NCBI GenBank assembly: GCA_008704415.1 | Contig: VXIS01000392.1 | Location: 1 to 40,005 of the forward strand | Direction of reading: 5' to 3' | Origin: Sphaerosporella brunnea | Lineage: Eukaryota > Ascomycota > Pezizomycetes > Pezizales > Pyronemataceae | DNA: 40,005 bases | Shown here: piece by piece, positions 9,721 through 33,461 of the stretch | Numbering within the stretch: position 1 is the stretch's first letter | How the letters are laid out: each line of letters opens with the position of its first letter | Made by a program: the position numbers and the translations under genes | Notes under the pieces: generated by a model | The model's database searches: none | What the model saw: the letters and a program-made list of their open reading frames with translations, nothing else | What the model was told of the DNA's origin: nothing

Positions 9721-9837
9721 CTGAAAAAAGGGGGGTAAATAAAATGACACTTTTTGAGAGAATGGCGTGTCTGGAATTGTTATCATAATGATAAAATGTG
9801 TAGAAATCGTACGTTTGAGTTGAGTAGACGTTATCAA

Positions 9838-12603
9838 AGCGGTTGAGGTATTAAAATGTTTTCCTTTTGTTTTCCAACAGTTTTAATAACGCAGACGCTG
9901 CTGTGCTGCAATACGCCACCACTTCAACGATGTCCCATGGTAGCGGACATCTATCACGGTAAGCAGAGCGTTTGTCAAAAACAAACAGTGGCATGTCTTA
10001 AACACTGACATCGTCAACTCTCTTAAACGTGGCTTGTGACTCCCGAGACCTCCACTTCTTCCTATCAATTTTGAATTTTTTTTTGTAAATCTTAACTCCC
10101 GAGAGTTTTTACCCGCGTGGGGATTGTGCTGTGGGCGGTGTACACCGTAAAATAAAAGTCGTCTATCCCGGGCCGCCTAGGCCCCGGCTCGGAAATCTGG
10201 TTTTTTGGTTACCTTGTAAAAGCACAACGCGCGGCGCGGCGGGGCGTCCAGGGCACGATACGGCAGGGCGGGGTGGGTAACTGGAGACGCCGGTGGATGC
10301 GCCGTAGACGCAACAGGCGCCTGTTCGGATGGCTGCACTCCACCTCCGGCAGCCCACCAACCTTATCGGCGATCTCTGCAGGTCCGGTGGGGGACCCGTA
10401 GGTGATACGATTCCGTGAGTCTTCGATTGTCGGCACGCGATGGCAGTGATGATCACCTCAGGCCGACCAGTGAATTGCCGATGCGCATGCGTACGCATGT
10501 GCCCGCGCAGGAAAGCCCGGTTCTGCGATCAAATCTCTAACGTCCCCATACCGTCAACTCACACCACTGCCACGGTAGACTGGTTTGAAAAACCCTCAAC
10601 TTCATGGGGTCTGTATTCCCGCTGGTATTCGTACTGGCATCGCGAGCTCGCAGTCATAATGTTGAGCATCGCCAACCGGATACCAGTTTCGTCATTCCGC
10701 GATCCCTTCGGCTTCTGTCGGCGTCAGCCTGAGGGTCCACCCACTGCCGACCGCCGGCGCGGTCGCTCAGGGGTCCACCCTATCAAATACACCACGTGGA
10801 AGGCGTCGCCGCGCGGTCTCCGGTCGTCGCTCAGTGCCCGGTGCGAGCTTAACCATCTCTCGGTCGCCTACGGGATAGGCATGCTGCCTCGTTGGCAGGT
10901 CATACCGGTCACAGTGTTGCACGATATGTAGGCATCCTGTCTCCTCGGGCTCTGCTGGGCACTGTGGGACTACGGCCAGTAGGCATCGCGTCTCCTAGGG
11001 ATTTTATGGCCGGCCAGCATCCCATCTTCCTTTTTTCCTTTGGTTTCAGGAGGCGAGTTCAAGTCTGCCAGCCGAGCGAGTGATCCACTGTAATTATCTT
11101 TGTCCGGCCTGACATAGCTTTTATAGTTTGCATGCAAACAATAAATTTGATTGCACACACACACACACGAGTGACCCGCTTGTACCTCATGCCATGGAAG
11201 CAGCCGAATTCAATCTCTCCTTCGAAAAACACAAAAATGTTCCATCCTGCCGGGCAAACGGTACCGGCGACCTGTCGGACAAACAAGCTATCGAACCCTG
11301 ACACAAAAAGTTTCTGAAATCTCTCACCATAGTGTCCTATCCAAGCTACAAACTACCACCTACACATGGGTCTAGTATATTCGTGCCATTTACAGTTGAA
11401 ACCTGCAGTACTGGGAGTTTGATAAATGGCTCCACTCCCAGAAAAGCCGTGTCAGTGGAGCTCTCAGTGGCACCTCGTTACTGTGCTTCTGCGAGTTGCT
11501 CCTTCAGCGGCCAGCGACATTCAGATCCCGTATAACGAGATGAGTGAAAGATTAACTTGCACCAGGTTGCAGCCAAGAATTCCACGAGTCGGCGAAGCCG
11601 CCAAAGTGCTCGGGAAGCTGCCGTTGCCTGCGGAATCTTTGAGGTCGACACTTCGCTGGCTGAAGTTGATGATTTGGAACCATGGCAAGCTTTGTACGGG
11701 AGCAGAGTTCTGTAGATTGAGTGTGCACTGTGAGCATGGCTTCGCAGCTGTCTGAGATATGTGGCGGTGACGAGTGATCGTACTCGATATGTTCGATATG
11801 ATAATTTTTACGCTGATGGTGGCGGTGGTCAACTTAGTCTGTGTTGTTGCGTTGTTGTGCGGGCATTATAGAATGCGTGGGTAGATTAAAACACAACTCG
11901 CTTTTGACGGGCATTGTAGACCTTTGCTCTTCCGGAATTTGTGTTGATTCCAAAGGGACAAAAAGCGAGGGAGAGCACGAGCGATTGTAGACAGCCCAGT
12001 TTTTGCGACCAAAATTGACAAAATAATCGAGCAGAGTGCACAGTGCGGACAAGGCCGCAACGTGAAATACACAACGACAACACCGCAAACTTTACCAGAA
12101 AAATTAAAAAAGAAACATGAGAGCAAAACCAGCAAGCAACAGCGCGGCAGATACTTTATGAATGTTCCCTGAATTTTCACAATAAATCGGCTTGCTTGGT
12201 TGGTTGCTTGTGTCGGATGGCGGAAGCTTAAAAAACCGCGTGAGAGTTAAAGATGATATGCACTGGATCTCACTCGGGTGTAGATTCAGCGTTAAACCTC
12301 AAACTTGAAGCGATATCAATCTATTTTTTAATTTTTTTGAAAACCAAAAATTATAATCCCTATTATTGTCGATGTATGTGTTTGTTCGATTGACCTTATT
12401 TCTTGTGGTATTGTTCTCGAGCGACTCTTGTGAAGAAGGGCACTGCGGGGTAGTTCTCAATTCACAAACTCGCGAAGGTCGGTGAAGCCATTCCACTTGC
12501 TATTATATTCTCTCTGCGTAAAACTTCTATCTAAGTACCTACTAAGTACCTAAGTACCTTAGCAGGGGACGGCCGTTTTTAAAAATCGTCATATGACCCT
12601 TTT
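9838..12603. other. Long stretch without a recognisable gene
   Basis: It contains a GC-rich block (about 10160-10960) with long but overlapping frames on both strands, none with recognisable motifs. A perfect 14-bp palindrome GTTTGCATGCAAAC lies at 11126-11139, a CA microsatellite at 11154-11168, and a CTAAGTACCTACTAAGTACC motif array at about 12531-12562. Several frames of 60-110 codons at 11059-12180 lack coding character. The mirror is 27379-30145. Confidence 0.45.
11154..11168. repeat. CA microsatellite
   Basis: An uninterrupted CA run of about 7.5 units. It reads as GT at 28814-28828 on the other arm with the same length. Confidence 0.9.
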
Positions 12604-12932
12604 CCAGACGGTAAAGCTTACATGACTGTTATATCATGCTCAGGTAGAAGAAATGGTGATGTAATGGGTTTTCTAGAAAAATGGTCGCCACAAAAAGGAT
12701 ATCCGGTGGTAAACACGATGATCGATCAGAAACTAGTGTTTGCTCAAAACCCACAGCCTTGCTCATCAAATAATCCCTGCTCATCAAATAGTCCGTATAT
12801 AATGGTTATTGAATGGTTAGACATCAACCAAAGTTGGGAGCAAACTCGAGTGACATCGCGTGCTCTGCAAGTGACATCATGTGTTGCCGCAATTCATCAC
12901 GCCGTTACAGCAATGGTGTTGAGCTTTCCAAT
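12604..12932 (-). repeat. Dispersed repeat, copy B
   Basis: Reverse-oriented relative of 8555-8860, starting CCAGACGGTAAAGC and ending GAGCTTTCCAATCAGCC. It is longer than copy A in the middle, where CTCATCAAATA is duplicated (12764 and 12780). It lies about 40 bases from the CTAAGTACC array. Confidence 0.7.
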
Positions 12933-13269
12933 CAGCCATATATCGGTCACGAGTAGGCTTCCGGCTTCGGCATCACCACATCTTCAGTTACGTTTTCCTG
13001 CGCCATCCACTGGTGGTGTCGCCTCAGTTTTGGGGGTTGAGGCAGGCGAGGCGCACGACTCGACGACGATGATGATGATTATGTGTTGATAATGATGGTG
13101 ATGGCGATGTCTGGCGCCTGGCGGGTATTACCGCCGCGTCGGGGTCGGATGCCCGCCGCGCGGCGAGGGTGCGGAGAGTAGGGCATATGAGCTTTTCTCA
13201 TATAATGGTTATATAATGGTTAGCAGCGAAATAATTGTTTTACTCACTAACCATCACCCACCCATAGAA
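12933..13269. other. Intergenic, nothing recognised
   Basis: It contains GAT/ATG-rich low-complexity sequence near 13065-13105 and a short hairpin (CATATGAG and CTCATATAATG, about 13185-13206). No gene is seen. The mirror is 26713-27049. Confidence 0.45.
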
Positions 13270-13557
13270 TAGGGGTCGATAAATATTATATACCGCTGTA
13301 GTTCTATACCATCCCGCAAGCGAAACCAAAACTACCGGAAACAAGATTCTTGCGGCCTATGATTAGCACTTCTTAGTATAACGCCATTATATACGTTTCC
13401 CAATCTTCTTGGTCATGTTCAAAGATCCCATTCATCACGCGATAATTCGTCCCAGCCTGAAACAATTGATTGAAAGTGTCTGCTTTTTTTTTGCTTTTTT
13501 TGATTCCCAAAAAAACACTCCACTGATGATCATCTGCCGTGCCACATTCCAGTAAGA

Positions 13558-13800
13558 GTGTCTAGCTTAGGAAATCTCCAGCCCACGAAATCCCTGGGCC
13601 AAGAAACCTCCTCTTTGAGAAATCCACGCCCCCAAGAAACCCCCGCCCCAAGAAATCCCCGGTCCTCCAAGAAACTTGCGGCCCTCGACCCAGGAAATCC
13701 CCGCCCTAAGAAATCACCGCCTCAAGGAATACCCACCCCCAGCAATCCCCGCCCCTCCCAATGGAAATCCTCATTCCAAGAAGTCCTCGCCCTACAGTTG
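13558..13800. repeat. Degenerate minisatellite, unit about 16-20 bp
   Basis: About a dozen tandem units of the form CCAAGAAATCCCCGCCC with variable spacing and changes. A stray unit lies at about 13871-13895. Long frames across it on the plus strand are low-complexity Pro/Arg/Asn translations and not genes. It sits inside the hAT remnant. The mirror is 26181-26423. Confidence 0.8.
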
Positions 13801-14102
13801 CACCATCACACGGCAATCATCTACCCTACCACACAGTCGCAGGGTTGCACATCCAGCCAAACAAAAATCTCCGCCCCCAAGAAATCCTGGCTCCACACAA
13901 AGTCATATGCCGTGTAACATTTAGAATGCATATGCATCATGCAGAGGAATACCCTTATACTATTGTGAAAACACAGTTGCGCCGAGCCAGAGTGATAGCA
14001 TGAGGCGGTCTTTTTTTGGCATTTATTTTGGCATTTTTCGATGTCAAACAGTACAAGCCTGAGCACGCCGACGCCGGCAGTCGCGCGCGTTTTTCCAGGC
14101 CT

Positions 14103-14810
14103 TTACACAAATTCGTCTTCAAGTTCCGTCAACTCCTCCTCAATTTCCTGTGACTGCTGTTCTTCAACCTGATGCCAATTGCGTGGTTCTCGGAAGGAGC
14201 GCTCGTGGATACGCATGTTTACATGGATGTAGGACAGCTTATCGGCTCGTTCTGCTGTAAGACGATTCCTCTTTTTATCATGCACAAGATTCCTGGTAGA
14301 AAAGGACCGCTCAGAGGGCACAGAATTAGAGAGCTTGAGTGCAAGCTCAGCAAGGTCTTTTGCGAAGGGTGCCATTTCTTCCCAAAAATTACGAGCATCC
14401 TCTGCGAGCTCCCAAATCTAACTGCGACGACGAAAGGGCTCATGGTGGCTTCTGTATTTCGCAAACTGGCCCTGCGTTACCTGCGGATTTGCACAGTGCT
14501 TTATGATAAAGTCAGATGTCGGATAGTGTTTGTCAATGGAAGCCGATTGTCGTCATCCAGTTCTTCTTCTCGTCCATTGAAGCGTAGGAAGTTGCGGTAT
14601 TGTTCACACTCATCCCTGAGATGGCGTTTTGCGCGAGTTGTGTTCTTCGCACCTTTCCATCCACAGTGCAGGCAGTGCGTGGTTTCGCACTGACTCAAGT
14701 TAATACTCCACAAGTCGTCGGTGTAGGTCAGTGGATTTTATCTCTGCGCCTTGCGGTGCGTCGCGGATTTCAAAGTTGCTTAAAAATTCGGGGTCGGTAT
14801 GGCCAGGCAT
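14103..14810 (-). pseudogene. Collapsed hAT transposase: BED-like finger joined to the C-terminal dimerisation domain (left copy)
   Basis: The minus strand starts MPGHTDPEFLSNF at 14810. A frame around 14650 then gives CLHCGWKGAKNTTRAKRHLR followed by DEC, a C-x2-C ... H-x4-C BED-type finger. The last block (14417-14103) reads IWELAEDARNFWEEMAPF, then LSNSVPSERSFSTRNLVHDK and RLTAERADKLSYIHVNMR, the hallmark hAT C-terminal dimerisation motif. Only about 700 bases separate start and end, where a full transposase needs about 2 kb, so the RNase H-like catalytic core is deleted. Stops and shifts separate the pieces. It cannot make active transposase. Confidence 0.82.
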
Positions 14811-15115
14811 TTCTTTCTGTCTGAGACTCCGAGTCCGAGTGGGTGGAAATTGGTGTGCTTTATATCCATCCTGTTCTCACCTTAAAGGAGCTTGAGGCTG
14901 CGTCCTCTCTGAAAGGCCGCGTCCTCACTCTTCGATCTCCGAGCGTCAAGTTTCAAGTTGAGGCGGCATGGGCGTCGTCCTTAGGCTAGTATCAGGCTCT
15001 ACCGCACTCAGGCATCAAATAAAGCTTTATACCTCCCCCAAGTGCTGTAATCTAGAACGTAGCGTTACCATACCTTAGGTTTCGTACGCAATTGAACCGT
15101 AATTATCGACCCCTA

Positions 15116-15469
15116 GCCTTAGCAGCATATGAGCTTAGATCCGAAAGTGCATTACATGATACTGTTTTGGCCTATTGGCTTAGACATTGTCATATAATGA
15201 TTGCATAACCATTTTCCAAAACACCCCACCCTGCTAAGGTAGGTAAGTACAGTACCAGGACAAAAACAATGGGAAAAGTCGCAGCTTTCCTAGTTCACAG
15301 CTAAATCACTCACTTTTCACCACCTTACCAAAAATCACCATTTGGTCCAAATATTTCGAAAGCAGATTTTGTATGGGGCCCCATACAAACGTGACTTGAC
15401 AACGGCCTTTGCGCACTCTGCCAGTTCGTCACGCAACACAAACACCTTTTTTCTTAATCTGCCACCAGA
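15116..15469. other. Intergenic, nothing recognised
   Basis: It holds the CCCTGCTAAGGTAGGTAAGTAC motif at about 15230, related to the array at 12531-12562, and a perfect GTATGGGGCCCCATAC palindrome at about 15372-15387. The mirror is 24511-24865. Confidence 0.45.
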
Positions 15470-15775
15470 ATGAAGATTCAAGATATCTCTTTAGCGTTCT
15501 GCGAACCTGCAGGTCAAATCACCTTGCCTGAACTAGTACCGCGCAATGGCGCTATTTTCCTCAGCACTACCGCATGTGCTACACCACAGGTTATTCTCCG
15601 TTTCCAAGCTCCATTCTTACTCTCTGCTAATTCCTGGCTGGATCTGGACTCTCGAAAGCTTGGCTATGAGCGGGGCAGCGATAGGCTGAGACAGTGCTTG
15701 TGGAAGCAGAGGGGCATCTCTTTGTACATTAGGGACCACCGGTATAGCCCGCTCAGTTGGGGCGTCTGCGGTTTA
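15470..15775 (+). pseudogene. Frameshifted left-arm version of the possible small ORF
   Basis: It starts with the same MKIQDISLAFCEPAG, then an extra base near 15569 changes frame. The shift fits the error pattern of this inner segment, so it is not evidence of a real pseudogene. Confidence 0.3.
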
Positions 15776-16757
15776 AGCATCGGCGACCCCAGAGATCGGG
15801 TCTCGACTCCTTCGTGTGGCGGTTTCGAGGACCGCGGTAAAGGCTCGCATAGACGCTCGCTAAATCGTGCCGATTGCGTGTTTGGGATGTATGTAATAGC
15901 ATACGTGCAGCCGCAATTGGCAAAAATGACACACTGACCTGTGACCTAATTCCCACCCGCGCATGCATACCTCTCACGCAATCCAACCAAATCCTGTCCC
16001 TAACCCATCTATGGCTCTGTTCCTGGCGCCCTTATGCTAGCAAAAGCCGGGCCCTTGCTCCTTTCGAGACGCTACATACCACGATAAGTGCTCTCTCTAG
16101 CCATCTCACATACGCGCAGCACAACTGCGCACTGGGATCCCCCGCGCGGCTTCAAGGGAAGGCCACCGACGCAACCCACGATATCCCATAGGCGCCCTGC
16201 GAATCCTATGAATTGCTGCCTCGCGACAAAGAAAGAAGCAGCAGCGATGGTTTCGAGCTTGGTGGCATCGACGCATCGTCGGACGGCGATGTCTCATAGA
16301 CGTACTCCACTTGCCGGCTCAGCACTCTTCTGTCATCCTTGTTTGCATGATCAACGTCAGCGCATCTCTGCGGGCGAAATGCAATTCTTCGAGCGGGTTC
16401 AGGCAATCTGCACCCTGCGTCAAGCGATATGGAGCCGCTCTGATTGGCCGAAGCAGACGACATGACATCGCAAAAAAAATATTATCATATGGGTTGGTTA
16501 CGTGAATGCAATTGGAGAAGAGCGATTGGCGAATGCGCCGCCGAGAACACACAAGACGTTAGAACAAGCACGCACGCAGTTTTTTCAACGTGCCAAAATA
16601 GTACCATAGTTCGAAGCACAAAACTACCTGTGCGGGGTATGTACTGTGCCGGTTGGGTGTCTCTTAACTGCAGCTTGATCCGTCGGTCTTGATAGAACCA
16701 TCTTCCAGAGCAGCAGATGAGATAACACTTCCTCTCTCCATTTATTCCACGGACCAG
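15776..16757. other. Upstream region of the nicotianamine synthase-like gene (left arm)
   Basis: There is no recognisable gene. Arm-to-arm alignment is noisy here. Frames of 60-130 codons do not agree between arms. The mirror is 23229-24204. Confidence 0.45.
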
Positions 16758-17794
16758 ATTTCGGCACGCGGAAGCCATCCCCTCGAACCACACGCTCCAA
16801 AAGCGACCTCGTACACCAATTCGGAGCCGATACTGCAAGCTGTTGCGGTCACCCCCCCCCCCCCCCCACCCCACCCCCCCGCCTCCGTGATCACGCATCT
16901 ACGACGCCTTACTCCGCAGCCAAAATCTCCTCGCCGTCTCCCGGCGTCACGCCCATCTCTCAGAGCTGGTATCGCTTTGCGTACGGCCTTACGCTCGTCC
17001 ACCGTTTCCGACATCCTCTCAGACCCACACTCCAGGAGATCGCGGCGAACTCGAAAGACTTTTTCGAACGGCGAGTACCTGCTCGAAAACACTGGGCAGC
17101 GCAAATCCTAGCCTCCAGCAATGGTGACTCCCTCCCGCACGTCATCTTTTCTGTGGAAGCCGCTACAACCCCCCGACCAGCCACGCCGCCCTCGCACGCC
17201 TTCCCCACTTCCAGAAACTACATGGAGCTCGCCACAGCCCTCACCTGCAGCCATCCCTCGGTGCACCCCCACCGAATCGACCTCCGTCGCCTTCATCGGC
17301 TCCCGGCCCCCATTGCCGCTGACAAGCCTATGCTTCTCGGCGCTCTGAGCCCCCGCCGGAGCGGCAAGCAAACAAACATCGACAACAGTGCGCGGCGCGA
17401 TCGCGGCGTCGTCGCAGCTCTGCGCCAAGCTCGCCAGGACCGGCGTCGGGCGCGGAGCATGGCGGCGGGCCTTTTGACGTTCCAGCTCGCCGACGCGGCG
17501 GCGGTGCAGGATATCGGGTCGTTCGAGGTGGTGTTACTCTCCGGGCTGGTCGGGGACACGGAGGCGGAGAAGCGGAGATCTTGGCGAACTTGGCGGGGCG
17601 GTGCAGCGGCGGGTCGCCTGCTGGTGCTGAGGAGCGCGCACGGGCTGAGGAAGCTGCTGTATCAGGAGAATCGATGAGGGTGCGTTGCAGGGATTCGGCT
17701 GGAGGTTTTATGGTCGTGCATCCGTGGAACCGTGTGGTCAATCCGTGGTGGTTTTGTACAATGGCTGGGACAGGCGTGAGGGGGAAAGCTGTAG
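16758..17794 (+). pseudogene. Nicotianamine synthase-like gene, error-ridden left-arm version
   Basis: Same locus as 22222-23228. The start codon reads ATT (16758), a C-run of about 17 bases with further C-rich sequence is inserted at 16851-16880, and many small indels scatter the frame. Fragments such as VVLLSGLVGDTEAEKRR still show the family. Between about 17122 and 17155 this arm keeps the frame that the right arm loses. It should be read as a second, noisy observation of one gene. Confidence 0.8.
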
Positions 17795-17983
17795 GGTGGG
17801 GGGGGGGCGGTGTGAATGAGCTTTTGTGGTCCAGAGAATCCCCCGACGGCTACAAGTATTTCACTCAAGCAAGGACACAATCAATGAACTCACTCGGCTA
17901 CTCGCTGGCCAGAATTTGTTCCAGGAGATGAAATGCATAGAATGAGCTTGCTAGAACAGTAGCACACACGACACCCAGCACAC

Positions 17984-18209
17984 TCAATCATAAGGCCCAT
18001 CATCGCCCACGCCCTACAAAAAAACCAACCGTAGCACGCACGCAACATACTCAACCAAGCGCTTACAAATCGGACAAGGCGTCGGGGACACGAGCGAAAG
18101 AAAGCAGATAATGCTCCGCAGCCTCATGAACGGGCGGCAGCCGCAGGGCGCAGGGTAGTCCCTAGGGCCGGAGAGGATGTGTTGGGGTGGCAGAGTTCGC
18201 AGGCGGCAT
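17984..18209 (-). pseudogene. RING-like protein, frameshifted left-arm version of 21810-22025
   Basis: The start MPPANSATPT and the DNA for CGCRPF and CPICKRLVEYV can be traced, but several indels destroy the frame. This is the same locus as the intact copy on the right arm. Confidence 0.65.
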
Positions 18210-18434
18210 TCGTTGTTGATGTTCCTGCCCCTCCCCCCCAGGTGACGGAGGGGGGGTTAAATAGTGATTGGGAGGAGGTGATTTTTGGAAGTCGTTTTTT
18301 AATTGCCATTTTGCAGCTGTTTTTTTTTTGTGAGGGGAGAGGAGGAGGAGGTGAGCGGAAATACGGGAGTAGACTAAGATAAGCCGCGCCACTCAGGACG
18401 GTTTCGCTCGCAGTCTCAACCTATGACGCGAAAC

Positions 18435-18733
18435 ATGTCATCCACAAAGATGCAACAGGCAGACCCGGTTAACCAGCATCGTGCAGACTGGCGCACTGCC
18501 GCTCCAACATGTCGCGGCGCCATACTGCGCCCGTGCGCGTGTCCTAGCCGTTCTGCGAGATGCGAGTATCATGATAACATCTACATAGTGCTTTGCGAGG
18601 CGCGGAGAGCTAATGCGTTTGTCCGCTGTGCACGCGCACGTTGTAGTATGGCGTTGACGAGGTTCTTGTGGCTGTGGTCATTAGAGAGTGAGGATGGCTC
18701 TTCACCGCTGGGGGTGTGGGAGGCAGCTGGTGA
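18435..18733 (+). pseudogene. RING-like paralogue, error-ridden left-arm version of 21387-21632
   Basis: It starts ATGTCATCCACAAAG like the intact copy and keeps a recognisable RPCACPSR segment, but it has insertions, including extra sequence before the ATG (18332-18434), and lost frame. Confidence 0.6.
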
Positions 18734-18849
18734 AAAAACAACTTCAAAGTAGCATGTTACGTTTTTGTCATGAGGTCTTAAGTGGAAAGTTCCTGATTGC
18801 ATATAACTACATAAAAAAAAAAATTCACACACTATCGCGTCCACAACCA

Positions 18850-19632
18850 TCACCGGAGAACCGCCACACCAGCCTTTCCTCCCTCTCGGTGTGCGGTATA
18901 CACCGCCTCGTGATCGACCTGCGGCAGCGGCGGCGGGCTGTCCTCGGCTTGCTGCTGCTGCTGCTCTCGTCCCCCTTTTCCGGCGCAAAGATCCGACGTA
19001 TGCGACGCCGCGCTCCGGCATCCAAAAGGGGTTTCCCCGGAAGACTGTACCTCACGCCGGCACTCCACTGGGCGGCGGGGGGCTCACGGCGCAACAAACG
19101 CAAGCGCGTGCGCGCCGCAGCGCCCCGCAACACCCTCCTGACCGCATGGGCGACATAATCATTTCGGCAAGGAAGCGCGGGGACGCGTGGGCGCCCAGAC
19201 GAGGCGCCAGCGCTCGAGGGGCGCTGCGGTCGCGGCGCCACACCTTCGCGCCGGCCTCGAGCGCGAACAGGCAGTCCTCGGTCGACGGCGACGGCGGCGA
19301 CGGCGCCAGCCGACGCAGGCGCCGCGGTCCACGCGCTCCGCGCGCGGAGTACGCGCGCGCCAGACGCAGCAGCGGCGGCAGACGCTTGCGTGGCGGCGCG
19401 GCAGGGCCAGCGCGGCAGCAAGCTGCGGGAGCTTCAGCTGGGCTTCGAGCAGCAGGCGGGACGCCAGCGAGGCGAGCAGCGGCTGTTCAGCGCGCGTGGG
19501 TCGCGCACGAGCCGCTGCTGTTGCTGCTGGTGCCGCTGTGGAGGAGGTGGGCTGGCATGCTGTGGGTTTCTGCGGGGGTAGGGTTAGCGCGGCGGAGAAG
19601 AGGCGGCGGTCGCTGGGCGTGAGGGGCGCCAT
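18850..19632 (-). pseudogene. Unknown 262-residue protein, frameshifted left-arm version
   Basis: The start (19630-19632) and stop (18850-18852) can be matched to the right arm and the span has the same total length. Compensating indels put the middle in other frames. It is the same locus as 20503-21291. Confidence 0.55.
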
Positions 19633-20030
19633 GGCTTGCGATGGAATGAGATGATGGTTACCGAAAAGGGTACTCTGCTGCCCTCCCCCGCCGCATTACT
19701 CTGGCCCGTAGACGTGCATCTTGAAGTCGACGGGTTTGCTGGGGTTCAAATGTGTCGCTCAACTCGAACCCGTGTGAAAGAGAATTGTGCCCCCCCAGCG
19801 GTGACATAAAGCATCACTCGGAATGTTCGGGCAGGGCTTACGTAAGGTTCGTTCGAAGTCCCCATCGCCAAGGCGACAGTCGTCAGCGCATGTGGTCACA
19901 CACAATTGTCCTGCACGCTCCTCGGCCGAGTTGGTGCATGCTTCATTCACTGACTGTTGCGAGTGCGATATGATATGCCTGACAAAAGTGCACGCAAGGA
20001 GGAAAAAACACAAACACCACCCAAGCGTCA

Positions 20031-20106
20031 ATCTCGGGCAGGTGGGCTGATTTGCTGAGTCCGAAACAGAGCGAGTCGAGCACAACGGAGGAGGGCAAGA
20101 GAGAGA
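20031..20106. other. Fold-point spacer with residual sequencing-adapter sequence
   Basis: These 76 bases separate the two arms and are the only non-duplicated sequence in the window. Read on the minus strand from 20107, they begin ATCTCTCTCTT, two mismatched bases, then CCTCCTCCGTTGT. Both blocks (11 and 13 bases) match the start and middle of the 45-base PacBio SMRTbell hairpin adapter as I know it, with three bases missing between them. The opposite edge reads ATCTC at 20031-20035, as expected for the other stem end. About 45 bases between (20036-20080) do not match the adapter and look like low-quality sequence, which would explain why adapter trimming missed it. Confidence 0.85.
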
Positions 20107-20502
20107 TGACGCTTGGGTGGTGTTTGTGTTTTTCTCCTTGCGTGCACTTTTGTCCAGGCATATCATATCGCACCGCAACAGTCAAGTGAATGAAGCATGC
20201 ACCAACTCGGCCGAGGAGCGTGCAGGACAATTGTGTGACCACATGCGCTGACGACTGTCGCCTTGGCGATGGGGACTTCCGAACGAACCTTACGTAAGCC
20301 CTGCCCGAACATTCCGAGTGATGCTTTATGTCACCGCTGGGGGGGCACAATTCTCTTTCACACGGGTTCGAGTTGAGCGACACATTTGCACCCCAGCAAA
20401 CCCGTCGACTTCAAGATGCACGTCTACGGGCCAGAGTAATGCGGCGGGGGAGGGCAGCAGAGTACCCTTTCCGGATAACCATCATCTCATCCATCGCAAG
20501 CC
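20107..20502. other. Sequence between fold point and first right-arm gene
   Basis: No gene is recognised. Frames here differ between arms (mirror 19633-20030). It is the 5' flank of the unknown protein gene, cut where the adapter spacer begins. Confidence 0.5.
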
Positions 20503-21291
20503 ATGGCGCCCCTCACGCCCAGCGACCGCCGCCTCTTCTCCGCCGCGCTAACCCTCACCCCCGCAGAAACCCACAGCATGCCAGCCCACCTCCTCCACAG
20601 CGGCACCAGCAGCAACAGCAGCGGCTCGTGCGCGACCCACGCGCCGCTGAACCAGCCGCTGCTCGCCTCGCTGGCGTCCCGCCTGCTGCTCGAAGCCCAG
20701 CTGAAGCTCCCGCAGCTGCTCGCCGCGCTGGCCCTGCCGCGCCTGCCACGCAAGCGTCTGCCGCCGCTGCTGCGTCTGGCGCGCGCGTACTCCGCGCTGG
20801 CGGAGCGCGTGGACCGCGGCGCCTGCGTCGGCTGCGCCGTCGCCGCCGTCGCCGTCGACGAGGACTGCCTGTTCGCGCTCGAGGCCGGCGCGAAGGTGTG
20901 GCGCCGCGACCGCAGCGCCCTCGAGCGCTGGCGCCTCGTCTGGGCCGCCCACGCGTCCCCGCGCTTCCTTGCCGAAACTGATTATGTCGCCCATGCGGTC
21001 AGGAGGGTGTTGCGGGCGCTGCGGCGCGCACGCGCTTGCGTTTGTTGCGCCGCTGAGCCCCCCGCCGCCCAGTGGAGTGCCGGCGTGAGGTACAGTCTTC
21101 CGGGAAACCCCTTTTGGATGCCGGAGCGCGGCGTCGCATACGTCGAGCTTCCTGCGCCGGAAAAGGGGGACGAGCAGCAGCAGCAGCAGCAGCTCGAGGA
21201 CAGCCCGCCGCCGCTGCCGCAGGTCGATCACGAGGCGGTGTATACCGCACACCGAGAGGCGAGGAAAGGCTGGTGGCGGTTCTCCGTGTGA
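20503..21291 (+). CDS. 262-residue protein of unknown function (better copy)
   Basis: ATG at 20503 begins MAPLTPSDRRLFSAAL. The protein is rich in Ala, Leu and Arg, with probable helices (LASLASRLLLEAQLKLPQLL and RKRLPPLLRLARAYSALAE), CVGC and CVCC pairs, a WRRDRSALERWRLVW segment, a Gln run near the C-terminus and TGA at 21289-21291. I recognise no family. High GC lengthens frames on the opposite strand too, but this frame is favoured because it keeps ordered hydrophobic and charged spacing and shares its strand with no better candidate. It sits about 400 bases from the fold point and tail-to-tail with the RING-like gene at 21387. Confidence 0.55.
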   Translation: MAPLTPSDRRLFSAALTLTPAETHSMPAHLLHSGTSSNSSGSCATHAPLNQPLLASLASRLLLEAQLKLPQLLAALALPRLPRKRLPPLLRLARAYSALAERVDRGACVGCAVAAVAVDEDCLFALEAGAKVWRRDRSALERWRLVWAAHASPRFLAETDYVAHAVRRVLRALRRARACVCCAAEPPAAQWSAGVRYSLPGNPFWMPERGVAYVELPAPEKGDEQQQQQQLEDSPPPLPQVDHEAVYTAHREARKGWWRFSV

Positions 21292-21386
21292 TGTTGTGGA
21301 CGCGATATGTTGTGAATTTTTTTTTTATGTAGTTAATGACATCGGACTTTACATGCAAAAGTAACATGCTTATTTGAAGTTGTTTC

Positions 21387-21632
21387 TCACAGCTGCTCCC
21401 ACCCACCCACGTGACTCCTCACGACCACATTCAACGCATACTCCACCGTGCGCGTGCACAGCGGACACCTCATTAGCTCCCCGCGCTCCGCAAAGCCTAT
21501 GTAGATGTTCCAGCACGCCTCGCAGAACGGCTGGCACGCGCACGGGCGCAGTATCGGCGCCGTCGACCTGTGGAGCGGCAGTGCGCAGAGTCTGCAGATG
21601 CGGTTAACGGTTGCTGTGTTTGTGGATGACAT
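21387..21632 (-). CDS. 81-residue RING-like protein, paralogue of the neighbouring finger (better copy)
   Basis: From ATG 21630-21632 the protein starts MSSTNTATVNRIC and carries ICRLCALPL, RPCACQPFCEACW and CPLCTRTVEYAL. The ligand spacing (C-x2-C-x14-C-x1-C-x3-C-x2-C-x15-C-x2-C) is identical to the divergent neighbour at 21810, with Cys in place of His at the fifth ligand. The frame is open 20 codons further upstream to 21692, but I prefer the inner ATG because it matches the short neighbour. The two starts are about 177 bases apart, so a shared bidirectional promoter is likely. This looks like a local inverted gene duplication. Function is inferred only from the finger. Confidence 0.72.
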   Translation of the reverse strand: MSSTNTATVNRICRLCALPLHRSTAPILRPCACQPFCEACWNIYIGFAERGELMRCPLCTRTVEYALNVVVRSHVGGWEQL

Positions 21633-21809
21633 GTTGCGTGGGGAAGGAAACCTGGGGCGCGGCTTATCTAGTCCTACTTCCCCGTATTTCAAAAAAAAAA
21701 AACAGCTGCAAATGGCAATTAAAAACGGCCTTCAAAAATCCTCCTCCCAATCACTATTTAACCCCCCCTCCCCTCACCTGGGGGGGCGGGGGGCAACATC
21801 AACAACGAA
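21633..21809. promoter_or_regulatory. Probable bidirectional promoter between the RING-like paralogues
   Basis: The region holds A- and T-runs, a CAGCTG box near 21701 with AATGGCAATT beside it, CCAATC-ACTATTTAA near 21746-21760 reading toward the plus gene, and a C/G-rich stretch just before the 21810 ATG. On the left arm it corresponds to about 18210-18434, which is longer and unreliable. Confidence 0.45.
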
Positions 21810-22025
21810 ATGCCGGCCTGCGAACTCTGCACCCAACACATCCTTCCGGCCCTGGGACCTACCCTGCAGCCCTGCGGCTGCCGCCCGTTCCATGAGGCCT
21901 GCTGGAGCCATTATCTCGCTTTCTTTCCGCTCGGGTCCCCCGCGCCTTGTCCGATTTGTAAGCGCTTGGTTGAGTATGTCGTGCGTGCTACGGTTAGGGG
22001 CGTGGGCGATGATGGGCCTTATTGA
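21810..22025 (+). CDS. 71-residue RING-like zinc-binding protein (better copy)
   Basis: The whole protein is little more than one finger. Metal ligands are C4, C7, C22, C24, H28, C31, C47 and C50, in QPCGCRPFHEACW and CPICKRLVEYVV. The order C4-H-C3 resembles the RING variant (RING-CH) class, with a short C-x3-H spacing. Such domains usually recruit E2 ubiquitin-conjugating enzymes, but a 71-residue protein without other domains may be an adaptor or metal-binding protein. ATG at 21810 starts MPACELC. A CCAATC and TATTTAA pair lies about 50-60 bases upstream. It is divergent from the paralogue at 21387-21632. Confidence 0.75.
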   Translation: MPACELCTQHILPALGPTLQPCGCRPFHEACWSHYLAFFPLGSPAPCPICKRLVEYVVRATVRGVGDDGPY

Positions 22026-22221
22026 TTGAGTGGGCTGGGTGTCGTGTGCTGCTACTGTTCTAGCAAGCTCATTCTATGCCATTTCATCTCCTGGAACAAA
22101 ATTCTGCCAGCGAGTAGCCGAGTGATGTTCAATGATTGTGTCCTTGCGAGTGAAAACTTAGCCCGGCAGGGGATTACTCTGGACCCACAAAAGCTCATTC
22201 ACACCCGCCCCCCCCCCACCC
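22026..22221. other. Convergent 3' region of RING-like and nicotianamine synthase-like genes
   Basis: Both genes end here. A C-run (22208-22217) lies just past the synthase stop. No separate gene is seen. The left equivalent is 17795-17983. Confidence 0.4.
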
Positions 22222-23228
22222 CTACAGCTTCCCCCTCACGCCTGTCCCCACCACTCTACAAACCACCACGGAATTGACCACACGGTTCCACGGATGCACG
22301 ACCAGCAACACCTCCAGCCCGAATCCCTGCAACGCACCCACATCGATCTCCTGATACAGCAGCTTCCTCAGCCCGTGCGCGCTCCTCAGCACCAGCAGCG
22401 ACCCCGCCGCGCACCGCCCCGCCACGTTCGCCAAGATCTTCCGCTTCTCCGCCTCCGTGTCCCCGACCAGCCCGGCGAGGAACACCACCTCGAACGACCC
22501 GAGATCCTGCACCGCCGCCGCGTCGGCGAGCTGGAACGTCAAACGGCCCGCCGCCATCGCTCCCGCGCCCGACGCGGTCCTGGCGAGCTTGGCGCAGAGC
22601 TGCGACGACGCCGCGATCGCCCGCGCACTGTTGTCGATGTTGTGCAGCCGCTCCGGCGGCGGGCTCAGCAGCGCCGAGAAGCAGAGGCTTGTCAGCGGCA
22701 AGGGGCCGGAGCCGATGAAGGCGACGGAGGCGATCCGGTGTGGGTGCACCGAGGAGATGGCCTGCAGCTCGAGGCGTGCGAGCTCCATGTAGTTCTGGAA
22801 GTAGGGGAAGGCGCGGAGGGCGGCGTGGGCTGGTCGGAGGGGTTTAGCGGCTTCCACAGAAAAGATGACGGCGGGAGGAGAGTTTCACCATTGCTGGAGG
22901 CTAGGATTTGCGCTGCCCAGTGGTTTTCGAGCAGGTACTCGCCGGTCGAACACGTCTTTCGTAGTTTCGCCGCGATCTCCCGGATGTGTGGGTCTGAGAG
23001 GATGTCGGAAACGGTGGACGAGCTGTACGGCCGTACGCAAAGCGATACCAGCTCTGAGAAGATGGCGTTGACGCCGGGAGACGGCGAGAGATTTGGCTGC
23101 CGGAGGAAGGCGTCGTAGATGCGGATCACGGAGGCGGTGACCGCAACAGCTGCAGGATCGAGCTCCGGAATTGGTGTCCGAGGTCGCTTTGACGCCGGTG
23201 GTCGAGGAGTGCTTCCGCGTGCCGACAT
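22222..23228 (-). CDS. Nicotianamine synthase-like protein (better copy, one frameshift)
   Basis: Nicotianamine synthases join aminocarboxypropyl groups from S-adenosylmethionine; fungal relatives are known and may make nicotianamine-type metal chelators. The first part, from ATG 23226-23228, reads MSARGSTPRPP, then FSELVSLCVRP and VSDILSDPHIREIAAKLRK. The second part carries the family core: FPYFQNYMELARLE, the SAM-binding VAFIGSGPLPLTS, NIDNSARAIAAS, VVFLAGLVGDTEAEKRKIL, LLVLRSAHGLRKLLY and HPWNRVVNSVVV, ending at TAG 22222. The two parts are in different frames, joined at about 22865-22890. There the left arm (near 17122-17155) is one base shorter and reads straight through, so the shift is most likely a base-call error. 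The corrected length is about 335 residues, normal for the family. The in-frame codon at 23297 is TTG, so 23228 is the better start. It is convergent with the RING-like gene at 21810. Confidence 0.85.
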
Positions 23229-24204
23229 CTGGTCCGTGGAATAAATGGAGAGAGAAGTGTTATCTCGATCTGCTGCTCTGGAAGATGGTTCTATCAAGAC
23301 CGACGGATCAAGCTGCAGTTAAAACACCCAACCGGCACAGTACATACCCCGCACAGGTAGTTTTTGTGCTCTTCGAACATGCGTACTATTTTGGCACGTT
23401 GAAAAACTGCGTGCGGGCTTGTTCTAACGTCTTGTGGCTTCTCGGCGGTCGCATTCGCCAATCGCTTCTTCTCCAATTGCATTCACGTAACCAACCCATA
23501 TGATAATATTTTTTTTGCGATGTCATGTCGTCTGCTTCGGCCAATCAGAGCGGCTCCATATCGCTTGACGCAGGGGTGCAGATTGCCGAACCCCCGCTCG
23601 AAGAATTGCTTTCGGCCCCGCAAGATGGCGATGACGTTGATCATGCAAAACAAGGGATGACAGAAGAGTGCTGAGCCGGCAAGTGGAGACTTCTTGAGAC
23701 ATCGCCGTCCGACCGATCGCGATGCACCAAGCTCAAACCAATCGCTGCTGCTTTCTTTGTCGGCGAGGCAACAATTCATGGATTGCAAAGGGCGCCTATG
23801 GGATATCGGTGGGTTCGTCGGTGGCCTTCCCTGAAGCCGCGCGGGGGATCCCAGTGGCAGTTGCTGCGATATGTTGAGATGGCTAGAAGAGCACTTATCT
23901 TGGTAGGTAGGTCTTCGAAAGGAGCAAAGGGCCCGGCTTTTTGCTAGCATGGGCTCCAGGAACAAGAGCTATAGATGGGTTAGGGACAGGATTTGGGTTG
24001 GGAATTGCGTGAGAGGTATGCATGCGTGGGTGGGAATTAGGTCAAAGGTCAGTTGTCAATTTTTGCCAAATTGCCGGCCTGCAGTATGGCTTACATAATT
24101 CCCCAAACACGGCAATCGGCAGATTTAGCGACGTTAGGCGCTTATCGCGGTCCGAAACCGCCACACGAAGGAGTCGAGACCCGATCTTCTGGGGTCGCCG
24201 ATGC
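23229..24204. other. Upstream region of the nicotianamine synthase-like gene (right arm)
   Basis: A 160-codon frame on the minus strand (23483-23965) lacks recognisable motifs and does not survive on the left arm. A long T-run (23511-23518) and ATGATAAT sequence occur near 23500. No gene is called. Confidence 0.4.
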
Positions 24205-24510
24205 TTAAACCGCAGACGCCCAACTGAGCGGGCTATACCGGTGGTCCCTAATGTACAAAGAGATGCCCCTCTGCTTCCACAAGCACTGTCTCAGCCTATC
24301 GCTGCCCCGCTCATAGCCAAGCTTTCGAGAGTCCAGATCCAGCCAGGAATTAGCAGAGAGTAAGAATGGGAGCTTGGAAACGGAGAATAACCTGTGGTGT
24401 AGACATGCGGTAGTGCTGAGGAAAATAGCGCCATTGCGCGGTACTAGTTCAGGCAAGGTGATTTGACCTGCAGGTTCGCAGAACGCTAAAGAGATATCTT
24501 GAATCTTCAT
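24205..24510 (-). CDS. Possible small protein of unknown function (better copy)
   Basis: An ATG at 24508-24510 opens a 101-residue frame starting MKIQDISLAFCEPAG and containing LVPRNGAIFLSTTA and DRLRQCLWKQRG. It is not recognised. It lies upstream of the nicotianamine synthase-like gene on the same strand, about 980 bases away. Composition is mildly protein-like, but there is no motif, no clear promoter, and the counterpart at 15470-15775 is frameshifted. It may be chance. Confidence 0.25.
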   Translation of the reverse strand: MKIQDISLAFCEPAGQITLPELVPRNGAIFLSTTACLHHRLFSVSKLPFLLSANSWLDLDSRKLGYERGSDRLRQCLWKQRGISLYIRDHRYSPLSWASAV

Positions 24511-24865
24511 TTCTGGTGGCAGATTAAGAAAAAAGGTGTTTGTGTTGCGTGACGAACTGGCAGAGTGCGCAAAGGCCGTTGTCAAGTCACGTTTGTATGG
24601 GGCCCCATACAAAATCTGCTTTCGAAATATTTGGACCAAATGGTGATTTTTGGTAAGGTGGTGAAAAGTGAGTGATTTAGCTGTGAACTAGGAAAGCTGC
24701 GACTTTTCCCATTGTTTTTGTCCTGGTACTGTACTTACCTACCTTAGCAGGGTGGGGTGTTTTGGAAAATGGTTATGCAATCATTATATGACAATGTCTA
24801 AGCCAATAGGCCAAAACAGTATCATGTAATGCACTTTCGGATCTAAGCTCATATGCTGCTAAGGC
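24511..24865. other. Intergenic, mirror of 15116-15469
   Basis: It contains the GTATGGGGCCCCATAC palindrome at about 24594-24609 and the TACCTACCTTAGCAGGG motif near 24736. No gene is seen. Confidence 0.4.
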
Positions 24866-25170
24866 TAGGGGTCGATAATTACGGTTCAATTGCGTACGAA
24901 ACCTAAGGTATGGTAACGCTACGTTCTAGATTACAGCACTTGGGGGAGGTATAAAGCTTTATTTGATGCCTGAGTGCGGTAGAGCCTGATACTAGCCTAA
25001 GGACGACGCCCATGCCGCCTCAACTTGAAACTTGACGCTCGGAGATCGAAGAGTGAGGACGCGGCCTTTCAGAGAGGACGCAGCCTCAAGCTCCTTTAAG
25101 GTGAGAACAGGATGGATATAAAGCACACCAATTTCCACCCACTCGGACTCGGAGTCTCAGACAGAAAGAA

Positions 25171-25878
25171 ATGCCTGGCCATACCGACCCCGAATTTTTA
25201 AGCAACTTTGAAATCCGCGACGCACCGCAAGGCGCAGAGATAAAATCCACTGACCTACACCGACGACTTGTGGAGTATTAACTTGAGTCAGTGCGAAACC
25301 ACGCACTGCCTGCACTGTGGATGGAAAGGTGCGAAGAACACAACTCGCGCAAAACGCCATCTCAGGGATGAGTGTGAACAATACCGCAACTTCCTACGCT
25401 TCAATGGACGAGAAGAAGAACTGGATGACGACAATCGGCTTCCATTGACAAACACTATCCGACATCTGACTTTATCATAAAGCACTGTGCAAATCCGCAG
25501 GTAACGCAGGGCCAGTTTGCGAAATACAGAAGCCACCATGAGCCCTTTCGTCGTCGCAGTTAGATTTGGGAGCTCGCAGAGGATGCTCGTAATTTTTGGG
25601 AAGAAATGGCACCCTTCGCAAAAGACCTTGCTGAGCTTGCACTCAAGCTCTCTAATTCTGTGCCCTCTGAGCGGTCCTTTTCTACCAGGAATCTTGTGCA
25701 TGATAAAAAGAGGAATCGTCTTACAGCAGAACGAGCCGATAAGCTGTCCTACATCCATGTAAACATGCGTATCCACGAGCGCTCCTTCCGAGAACCACGC
25801 AATTGGCATCAGGTTGAAGAACAGCAGTCACAGGAAATTGAGGAGGAGTTGACGGAACTTGAAGACGAATTTGTGTAA
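25171..25878 (+). pseudogene. Collapsed hAT transposase (right copy)
   Basis: Mirror of 14103-14810. The BED-like finger is at about 25295-25370 and the dimerisation block at 25564-25878, ending in TAA. Confidence 0.82.
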
Positions 25879-26180
25879 AGGCCTGGAAAAACGCGCGCGA
25901 CTGCCGGCGTCGGCGTGCTCAGGCTTGTACTGTTTGACATCGAAAAATGCCAAAATAAATGCCAAAAAAAGACCGCCTCATGCTATCACTCTGGCTCGGC
26001 GCAACTGTGTTTTCACAATAGTATAAGGGTATTCCTCTGCATGATGCATATGCATTCTAAATGTTACACGGCATATGACTTTGTGTGGAGCCAGGATTTC
26101 TTGGGGGCGGAGATTTTTGTTTGGCTGGATGTGCAACCCTGCGACTGTGTGGTAGGGTAGATGATTGCCGTGTGATGGTG

Positions 26181-26423
26181 CAACTGTAGGGCGAGGACTT
26201 CTTGGAATGAGGATTTCCATTGGGAGGGGCGGGGATTGCTGGGGGTGGGTATTCCTTGAGGCGGTGATTTCTTAGGGCGGGGATTTCCTGGGTCGAGGGC
26301 CGCAAGTTTCTTGGAGGACCGGGGATTTCTTGGGGCGGGGGTTTCTTGGGGGCGTGGATTTCTCAAAGAGGAGGTTTCTTGGCCCAGGGATTTCGTGGGC
26401 TGGAGATTTCCTAAGCTAGACAC
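26181..26423. repeat. Degenerate minisatellite (right copy)
   Basis: Mirror of 13558-13800, read as GGGCGGGGATTTCTTGG units. Confidence 0.8.
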
Positions 26424-27049
26424 TCTTACTGGAATGTGGCACGGCAGATGATCATCAGTGGAGTGTTTTTTTGGGAATCAAAAAAAGCAAAAAAAAAAGC
26501 AGACACTTTCAATCAATTGTTTCAGGCTGGGACGAATTATCGCGTGATGAATGGGATCTTTGAACATGACCAAGAAGATTGGGAAACGTATATAATGGCG
26601 TTATACTAAGAAGTGCTAATCATAGGCCGCAAGAATCTTGTTTCCGGTAGTTTTGGTTTCGCTTGCGGGATGGTATAGAACTACAGCGGTATATAATATT
26701 TATCGACCCCTATTCTATGGGTGGGTGATGGTTAGTGAGTAAAACAATTATTTCGCTGCTAACCATTATATAACCATTATATGAGAAAAGCTCATATGCC
26801 CTACTCTCCGCACCCTCGCCGCGCGGCGGGCATCCGACCCCGACGCGGCGGTAATACCCGCCAGGCGCCAGACATCGCCATCACCATCATTATCAACACA
26901 TAATCATCATCATCGTCGTCGAGTCGTGCGCCTCGCCTGCCTCAACCCCCAAAACTGAGGCGACACCACCAGTGGATGGCGCAGGAAAACGTAACTGAAG
27001 ATGTGGTGATGCCGAAGCCGGAAGCCTACTCGTGACCGATATATGGCTG

Positions 27050-27378
27050 ATTGGAAAGCTCAACACCATTGCTGTAACGGCGTGATGAATTGCGGCAACA
27101 CATGATGTCACTTGCAGAGCACGCGATGTCACTCGAGTTTGCTCCCAACTTTGGTTGATGTCTAACCATTCAATAACCATTATATACGGACTATTTGATG
27201 AGCAGGGATTATTTGATGAGCAAGGCTGTGGGTTTTGAGCAAACACTAGTTTCTGATCGATCATCGTGTTTACCACCGGATATCCTTTTTGTGGCGACCA
27301 TTTTTCTAGAAAACCCATTACATCACCATTTCTTCTACCTGAGCATGATATAACAGTCATGTAAGCTTTACCGTCTGG
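27050..27378 (+). repeat. Dispersed repeat, copy B (right copy)
   Basis: Mirror of 12604-12932. Confidence 0.7.
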
Positions 27379-30145
27379 AAAAGGGTCATATGACGATTTT
27401 TAAAAACGGCCGTCCCCTGCTAAGGTACTTAGGTACTTAGTAGGTACTTAGATAGAAGTTTTACGCAGAGAGAATATAATAGCAAGTGGAATGGCTTCAC
27501 CGACCTTCGCGAGTTTGTGAATTGAGAACTACCCCGCAGTGCCCTTCTTCACAAGAGTCGCTCGAGAACAATACCACAAGAAATAAGGTCAATCGAACAA
27601 ACACATACATCGACAATAATAGGGATTATAATTTTTGGTTTTCAAAAAAATTAAAAAATAGATTGATATCGCTTCAAGTTTGAGGTTTAACGCTGAATCT
27701 ACACCCGAGTGAGATCCAGTGCATATCATCTTTAACTCTCACGCGGTTTTTTAAGCTTCCGCCATCCGACACAAGCAACCAACCAAGCAAGCCGATTTAT
27801 TGTGAAAATTCAGGGAACATTCATAAAGTATCTGCCGCGCTGTTGCTTGCTGGTTTTGCTCTCATGTTTCTTTTTTAATTTTTCTGGTAAAGTTTGCGGT
27901 GTTGTCGTTGTGTATTTCACGTTGCGGCCTTGTCCGCACTGTGCACTCTGCTCGATTATTTTGTCAATTTTGGTCGCAAAAACTGGGCTGTCTACAATCG
28001 CTCGTGCTCTCCCTCGCTTTTTGTCCCTTTGGAATCAACACAAATTCCGGAAGAGCAAAGGTCTACAATGCCCGTCAAAAGCGAGTTGTGTTTTAATCTA
28101 CCCACGCATTCTATAATGCCCGCACAACAACGCAACAACACAGACTAAGTTGACCACCGCCACCATCAGCGTAAAAATTATCATATCGAACATATCGAGT
28201 ACGATCACTCGTCACCGCCACATATCTCAGACAGCTGCGAAGCCATGCTCACAGTGCACACTCAATCTACAGAACTCTGCTCCCGTACAAAGCTTGCCAT
28301 GGTTCCAAATCATCAACTTCAGCCAGCGAAGTGTCGACCTCAAAGATTCCGCAGGCAACGGCAGCTTCCCGAGCACTTTGGCGGCTTCGCCGACTCGTGG
28401 AATTCTTGGCTGCAACCTGGTGCAAGTTAATCTTTCACTCATCTCGTTATACGGGATCTGAATGTCGCTGGCCGCTGAAGGAGCAACTCGCAGAAGCACA
28501 GTAACGAGGTGCCACTGAGAGCTCCACTGACACGGCTTTTCTGGGAGTGGAGCCATTTATCAAACTCCCAGTACTGCAGGTTTCAACTGTAAATGGCACG
28601 AATATACTAGACCCATGTGTAGGTGGTAGTTTGTAGCTTGGATAGGACACTATGGTGAGAGATTTCAGAAACTTTTTGTGTCAGGGTTCGATAGCTTGTT
28701 TGTCCGACAGGTCGCCGGTACCGTTTGCCCGGCAGGATGGAACATTTTTGTGTTTTTCGAAGGAGAGATTGAATTCGGCTGCTTCCATGGCATGAGGTAC
28801 AAGCGGGTCACTCGTGTGTGTGTGTGTGCAATCAAATTTATTGTTTGCATGCAAACTATAAAAGCTATGTCAGGCCGGACAAAGATAATTACAGTGGATC
28901 ACTCGCTCGGCTGGCAGACTTGAACTCGCCTCCTGAAACCAAAGGAAAAAAGGAAGATGGGATGCTGGCCGGCCATAAAATCCCTAGGAGACGCGATGCC
29001 TACTGGCCGTAGTCCCACAGTGCCCAGCAGAGCCCGAGGAGACAGGATGCCTACATATCGTGCAACACTGTGACCGGTATGACCTGCCAACGAGGCAGCA
29101 TGCCTATCCCGTAGGCGACCGAGAGATGGTTAAGCTCGCACCGGGCACTGAGCGACGACCGGAGACCGCGCGGCGACGCCTTCCACGTGGTGTATTTGAT
29201 AGGGTGGACCCCTGAGCGACCGCGCCGGCGGTCGGCAGTGGGTGGACCCTCAGGCTGACGCCGACAGAAGCCGAAGGGATCGCGGAATGACGAAACTGGT
29301 ATCCGGTTGGCGATGCTCAACATTATGACTGCGAGCTCGCGATGCCAGTACGAATACCAGCGGGAATACAGACCCCATGAAGTTGAGGGTTTTTCAAACC
29401 AGTCTACCGTGGCAGTGGTGTGAGTTGACGGTATGGGGACGTTAGAGATTTGATCGCAGAACCGGGCTTTCCTGCGCGGGCACATGCGTACGCATGCGCA
29501 TCGGCAATTCACTGGTCGGCCTGAGGTGATCATCACTGCCATCGCGTGCCGACAATCGAAGACTCACGGAATCGTATCACCTACGGGTCCCCCACCGGAC
29601 CTGCAGAGATCGCCGATAAGGTTGGTGGGCTGCCGGAGGTGGAGTGCAGCCATCCGAACAGGCGCCTGTTGCGTCTACGGCGCATCCACCGGCGTCTCCA
29701 GTTACCCACCCCGCCCTGCCGTATCGTGCCCTGGACGCCCCGCCGCGCCGCGCGTTGTGCTTTTACAAGGTAACCAAAAAACCAGATTTCCGAGCCGGGG
29801 CCTAGGCGGCCCGGGATAGACGACTTTTATTTTACGGTGTACACCGCCCACAGCACAATCCCCACGCGGGTAAAAACTCTCGGGAGTTAAGATTTACAAA
29901 AAAAAAATTCAAAATTGATAGGAAGAAGTGGAGGTCTCGGGAGTCACAAGCCACGTTTAAGAGAGTTGACGATGTCAGTGTTTAAGACATGCCACTGTTT
30001 GTTTTTGACAAACGCTCTGCTTACCGTGATAGATGTCCGCTACCATGGGACATCGTTGAAGTGGTGGCGTATTGCAGCACAGCAGCGTCTGCGTTATTAA
30101 AACTGTTGGAAAACAAAAGGAAAACATTTTAATACCTCAACCGCT
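27379..30145. other. Long stretch without a recognisable gene, mirror of 9838-12603
   Basis: It includes the GC-rich block (29022-29822), the GT microsatellite (28814-28828) and the GTTTGCATGCAAAC palindrome (28843-28856). Frames are overlapping and motif-free. Confidence 0.45.
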
Positions 30146-30262
30146 TTGATAACGTCTACTCAACTCAAACGTACGATTTCTACACATTTTATCATTATGA
30201 TAACAATTCCAGACACGCCATTCTCTCAAAAAGTGTCATTTTATTTACCCCCCTTTTTTCAG

Positions 30263-30745
30263 AAGAGGGTAGTGACTTCGCTTAAGGAGTTCCTGCGCAA
30301 CGATCCAAAGCTCAACGATTCAGTATCCAATTGGGGAAATGCCCATGCCGACGCCTTTAAAATCCTGGACCGTTCTGCCCGCACTCTTCAGGTGAACTCG
30401 ATGCCAAATGCCGTCACGAAACAAATCAAGTCTACTGCCGCGAAGATCGCGACAAGTAATGCAGAGGTTGGCAAAGCTCTTCAAAACCTCAAAGGACACG
30501 ATGATTCAATCATTCGCCACTGTTGCGTTGAGAATGGGGCTGGGACTTTACGTCTTTCGTTCTTGCGAGGGCTGAGATTCTGTATCCCGGCGACGGACGG
30601 GTTAGATGAATCATCAGAAGAACGGTAACAAGAACAGCCAACGAGAGATGAGAAAGAAGCACTGAAGCTGAGAAAGAGGGCCCGCCACAAGGAGTTATAT
30701 GAGGAACTCTTTTTTGACGACAGCGAGTATATGTCTCAAGGATAA
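30263..30745 (+). pseudogene. Exon-like frame with one internal TAA (right copy)
   Basis: Mirror of 9238-9720. The acceptor CAG is at 30260-30262 after a C/T run, the internal TAA at 30626-30628 and the final TAA at 30743-30745. The same internal stop is called on both arms. Confidence 0.4.
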
Positions 30746-31122
30746 TTCGTCTCAGGAGAAAGCACTTATTCGGACGTGGCTTCAGGTTTCCTCAAGCGGC
30801 GCACGCACTCCGAAACTTTGAATTTGAAATTAGCCAGCGAGTTTCTTGGCCCGGTGTGCTGAAAATGGCGCGACGATTGCGATGGCGCCATTGCTGGTGG
30901 ATAATTCGTATTCTCGTAAGTGTTCTATTCTTGTTGGTGTTCAAGGCTTGCAGCCTATGATGGACGACGTCTGTTGCTGTTGGAATATGCGTCCTGGCGT
31001 AATGTGGATGTGGAGCGAGTGCTGGCGAGTGAGAGCACATGCAATGACTCACTCGTTGAGGCCGGAAAACTGGTGTTTCACATTGGGTGTGGGTTTAAGG
31101 CTTCCTGAATTATAGCTTGTTC

Positions 31123-33363: not shown

Positions 33364-33461
33364 CAGCGACGCCCGCCTTCCTTCGGAAATAAAACATGCG
33401 GGGTTTCATGATTCAATTTAATTTTGAGGCGTCGGGCGAGGTTGCATGACACAGTTTAATT

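Follow-up and report, generated by a model that had tools for sequence, protein, structure and literature searches.

The 40-kb palindrome that makes up contig C326 of Sphaerosporella brunnea is, at a probability that we put at about 0.97, a missed-adapter (adaptor-skipped) PacBio read carried into the contig, not a feature of the genome. Missed-adapter reads in contigs are a known class of artefact. The window, i.e. the whole stretch of DNA analysed (positions 1-40,005), is the complete contig from end to end, in an assembly of 640 contigs and 50,565,648 bases. It is mirror-symmetric about a fold, so that the entire contig is one palindrome, composed of the following parts:

1..20030, plus strand: left arm of the palindrome, (near-)identical to the reverse complement of 20108-40005
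20031..20107, minus strand: spacer of 77 bases at the fold, very probably the read-through of a hairpin adapter with a swollen or garbled second half
20108..40005, minus strand: right arm, the reverse complement of the left arm according to the arm alignment
15762..20030, plus strand: the noisy stretch nearest the fold in the left arm, where identity to the mirror is 72-98% in full 250-base bins and short indels abound (outer limit approximate)
20108..24218, minus strand: the noisy stretch nearest the fold in the right arm, from the arm alignment (outer limit approximate)

The longest paired stretches are 100% complementary (e.g. 2-6854 with 33153-40005). Because the left arm holds more inserted bases, the midpoint of the pairs is not constant: it lies at ~20,003 in the outermost one and reaches ~20,068 in the innermost ones; the fold has its midpoint at 20,069 and the contig at 20,003. 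In 500-base bins, the identity of the arms is 99.8-100% from position 1 to ~15.5 kb, with the single exception of bin 7501-8000 (94.7%), and falls to 72-98% over ~15.5-20.0 kb. The final kilobase before the fold (window 19001-20000, 96.5-98%) is cleaner than 15760-19000 (72-94%), and this difference between 19.0-20.0 kb and 15.8-19.0 kb counts against the missed-adapter explanation. Regions 1-6000 and 14001-15503 of the window have many relatives across the assembly (mostly 67-98% identical), which are probably transposable elements and may explain why the contig ends near there. A palindrome of the rDNA or telomere type was also considered and dropped, as the Rfam scan of the window at gathering thresholds gave no match and none of its 13 tandem-repeat rows is telomere-like.

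The sequence-only reading had attributed the palindrome to an untrimmed read-through, on the grounds that the spacer, which it counted as 76 bases (20031-20107 comprises 77), contains half of an adapter. As the reference for alignments we used what we take to be the 45-base SMRTbell adapter sequence. The minus strand from 20107 to 20082 indeed reads ATCTCTCTCTT GC CCTCCTCCGTTGT, so that the two blocks reported in that reading are present in the right order, with the sequence and at the place it gave, and so is the stem end that it had noticed at the opposite edge of the spacer:

20082..20107, minus strand: legible part of the SMRTbell adapter, covering positions 1-29 of 45, with 24 exact bases in two blocks
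20031..20035, minus strand: 3' stem end of the adapter, read from the sequence as GAGAT on the minus strand (ATCTC on the plus strand)

The exact blocks correspond to adapter positions 1-11 and 17-29, with positions 12-16 garbled, while positions 30-45 are unrecognisable save for the terminal GAGAT and perhaps TGTT; to call this half an adapter is thus fair. The match starts exactly at the edge of the right arm, which is where a hairpin adapter lying between the arms would begin. Local alignment of the spacer with the adapter gave a score of 39, far above the shuffled controls: mononucleotide shuffling of the spacer gave this value in none of 20,000 trials, its dinucleotide-Markov versions did so in one of 20,000 (score: 46), and random 2.5-kb sequences generated from a model of the window in none of 4,000 (10 Mb; maximum: 37). 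The end-to-end alignment, with long insertions allowed, scored 41.2 (null maxima: 31 for 20,000 shuffles; 35.4 for 20,000 segments of 77 bases taken from the window itself). The pattern ATCTCTCTCTT-N{0,8}-CCTCCTCCGTTGT has one occurrence in the whole assembly, the fold of C326. On the other side of the balance, the spacer exceeds the adapter in length by 32 bases and ~50-51 of its 77 bases are mostly not adapter, which counts against the missed-adapter reading; a comparison of the ~51 unmatched bases with the arms, made for their source, revealed no match above shuffles (28, null maximum 32).

The differences between the inner arms are of the short-indel kind expected from read errors. In ordinary divergence substitutions far outnumber indels. 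Here, from 15,580 inwards, gap-friendly scoring yielded 269 indel events, among which 220 concern one base, versus 61 substitutions, and three substitution-friendly scorings yielded 185, 212 and 127 substitutions versus 183, 174 and 213 indel events, respectively. The inner arms thus differ more as noisy reads do than as relatives; however, indels clearly dominate only under the gap-friendly scoring and are about equal to substitutions under the others, which counts against this interpretation. Even these near-equal numbers represent a much higher share of indels than is usual for ordinary divergence.

When 14001-19990 was searched against the assembly, the matches in other contigs, mostly scattered repeats, ended at ~15,503, and past that point the inner arm matched C326 alone; both results refer to the 40 scored out of 170 candidates and are not exhaustive. 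By sequence comparison, the locus of the inner arm looks single-copy and written twice. It contains a nicotianamine synthase gene (match to PF03059), whose copies in the two arms are as follows:

22222..23228, minus strand: nicotianamine synthase gene, right-arm copy, annotated as protein P0001 and spread over two open frames that overlap
16758..17787, plus strand: left-arm reading of the nicotianamine synthase gene with a broken frame, 31-43% identical to P0001 in three frames

Among proteins, the gene product is matched best by P0001, the nicotianamine synthase of S. brunnea, to which the right-arm gene is 95-98% identical in two frames; this comparison is circular, P0001 being the annotation of S. 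brunnea itself. The Wilcoxina relative (P0003) gives a single-frame alignment of 195 columns with the right arm (65%) and aligns with the left arm in pieces only (38% and 27%). The nearest relatives of the nicotianamine synthase (from Wilcoxina mikolae and metagenome proteins) are 59-69% identical. What the inner arms present twice is a real fungal locus, with this gene in it. Farther out, a P450-like frame that is open for 395 aa (Pfam score of 27.9 against a cut-off of 22.8) lies at 3930-5117 on the plus strand with its mirror at 34890-36077 on the minus strand; it is identical in both arms and would be counted as two genes.

The window is linked through the protein match P0001 to the published S. 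brunnea genome, which was sequenced from PacBio SMRTbell libraries (low-input, 10 kb, 908x depth), assembled with Falcon 0.3.0, finisherSC 2.1 and Arrow, and reported as 872 contigs and 51.6 Mb (PMC6908789); for the reads of the project the same paper names SRP214822 and SRP215074. The assembly that we searched, of 640 contigs and 50.57 Mb, may be another version of it or incomplete. At the published depth (PMC6908789) polishing would be expected to have cleaned the inner ~4.3 kb, yet they are noisy, which counts against the artefact reading.

We propose that the polymerase would have read one strand of the insert, rounded the hairpin (SMRTbell) adapter and returned along the other strand. The adapter stretch would have been read badly, with one half near-perfect and the other swollen, so that the adapter finder may have failed to cut it and the uncut read could enter the assembly. 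We infer that the swollen adapter caused the failure of trimming, that the inner ~8.5 kb derive from a single read and that Falcon or finisherSC was the step at which the join was made. In C326 the out-and-back read would have joined the contig to its own reverse complement, which accounts for a fold near the middle of the contig. In two of the contigs described below, C388 (one arm of which reaches base 1) and C178, the uncut read would instead have added a fold-back at the contig end.

The sequence-only reading had proposed a screen for the same adapter bases at other centres of inverted repeats. The same 24 bases were found only in C326, while looser adapter words do lie in fold-backs of four further contigs. 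Neither the full adapter nor the 26-base word of its second half (both with up to 3 mismatches), nor either of two gapped adapter patterns, was found at any place in the assembly; these near-exact and gapped patterns missed all four other folds, which were reached by shorter words alone. Searches with short adapter words, allowing few mismatches, led to 39 different places (14, 1, 4 new of 8, and 20), and reversed control patterns gave half as many to equal numbers (9 versus 14, 1 versus 1, 4 versus 8 and 15 versus 20), so most of the short-word matches are probably due to chance. Inverted repeats across the word were sought at 38 of the 39 places (C637 was left out, and one of the places included had only 12 bases beyond the match). 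The word lies inside a fold-back at 5 of the 38 places, in four contigs (two places in C388, one each in C178, C451 and C504), as compared with none of 12 control loci (loci chosen for other reasons). Leaving aside the second word in C388, these are:

C388, 4264-4285: adapter word of 22 exact bases, between 3.84-kb arms of 99.8% identity
C451, 5452-5473: adapter half GTTGTTGTTGTTGATGAGAGAT at the fold; arms 99.8% identical farther out and 67-92% near the fold
C504, 10986-11010: adapter half CCGTTTTTGTTGTTGTGAGAGAGAT; the two longer pieces of the arms pair at 72-74%
C178, 67590-67612: adapter half CCGTTTGTGTTGTTGAGAGAGAT; arms 77% identical, 2.3 kb from the contig end

C451, C504 and C178 have a clean second half of the adapter, and what stands in place of the first half is over-long and rich in C and T, whereas in C326 and C388 the clean half is the first one. 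It is plausible that the garbled half is the reason why adapter trimming failed.

The near fold of C388 comprises ~430-490 bases per side, of which a stretch of 139 columns forms a mirror match of 70%, centred beside the adapter word, with a score of 76 (at most 36 in the null). This match is rich in substitutions (30, with 11 gap bases), which counts against the missed-adapter reading, and no pairing was seen in the remainder of the 937-base stretch between the 99.8% arms. The interpretation of the C388 word as a chance match was dropped after a more sensitive comparison revealed the 139-column mirror match. The second word (C388:4605), in the same stretch, is off-centre by about 305 bases and is taken as a coincidence.

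Three other explanations have to be weighed. An artefactual fold could mark a real break, if DNA molecules recurrently ended near 20,030, for instance at a chromosome end or a fragile site by the nicotianamine synthase gene: inserts would then have stopped at this point, hardly any read would have passed it and the fold-back read would be the sole connection; we regard this as improbable. A slightly smaller chance is left to an amplification chimera (template switching in MDA or PCR) or an adapter-free fold-back of the library. The genome was produced with a low-input protocol, the description of which is silent on amplification (PMC6908789), and amplification is known to yield palindromic reads, according to the parts of the literature available to us (PMC6218980; PMC13265396), but a fold of this kind is made without a sequencing adapter, and half of an adapter is present at the fold of C326 and at those of the four other contigs. 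Least credible of all is a real inverted duplication or palindromic element with outer arms kept identical by gene conversion and a spacer whose likeness to the adapter is accidental: gene conversion could produce outer arms that are 100% identical over many kb, and the inner arms do consist of genuine fungal DNA, nicotianamine synthase gene included, but the adapter match begins precisely at the arm edge, the arms are indel-rich with the gene frame broken in one of them, an adapter half and a fold-back recur in four other contigs, and the window is a whole contig folded near its middle (20,069 versus 20,003). The read-through claimed in the sequence-only reading is supported by these observations together with the PacBio chemistry.

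A missed-adapter origin of the C326 palindrome agrees with what has been described for long-read data. The accessible text on BIGMAC states that adaptor-skipped reads are common in such data, that assemblers are held up by them and that contigs inherit the palindromic pattern (PMC5084376), and the corresponding text on Pacasus states that missed SMRTbell adapters lead to palindromic reads that are potentially harmful to assemblies (PMC6218980). C326 resembles these cases, as far as the available portions of both sources describe them, in the long palindrome, the out-and-back read at the fold, the adapter remnant in the spacer and the PacBio reads (PMC5084376, PMC6218980); it differs from the same descriptions in that the adapter remnant is still legible in the assembled contig, with one half garbled. 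The fold-backs treated by Breakinator are likewise out-and-back reads taken for real structure, but, in the portion of that source available to us, the artefacts arise mainly in nanopore libraries, with virtually none in PacBio HiFi data (PMC12870357), unlike in C326.

Leftover adapter is also present in public contigs, with a geometry that differs from that of C326. The exact 33-base core of the adapter occurs in two stretches of the GTDB genome collection, both in contigs of Bacteroides faecalis, and in one stretch of IMG/VR. NZ_BHWB01000048.1 of B. faecalis (1-6129) is a 6.07-kb palindrome (99.6%) and, like C326, a palindromic contig carrying an adapter (positions 7-45, 39 exact bases); however, this adapter lies at the outer end of the contig, and the best adapter score around the fold is 16. 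The companion contig NZ_BHWB01000042.1 also ends in an adapter, and the last 45 bases of the viral contig IMGVR_UViG_3300046167_000019 are a complete, exact SMRTbell adapter; no inverted repeat was found in these two adapter-ended contigs, in the 428 and 2,379 bases examined.

For PacBio assemblies of this kind, it costs little to test whether partial adapter words sit inside a fold, and the check is worthwhile because near-exact patterns missed adapter halves with a garbled partner. For the S. brunnea assembly, our analysis removes a false 40-kb palindrome together with the false duplication of the content of its arms (the nicotianamine synthase gene and the P450-like frame), and indicates the same fault in C388, C178, C451 and C504.
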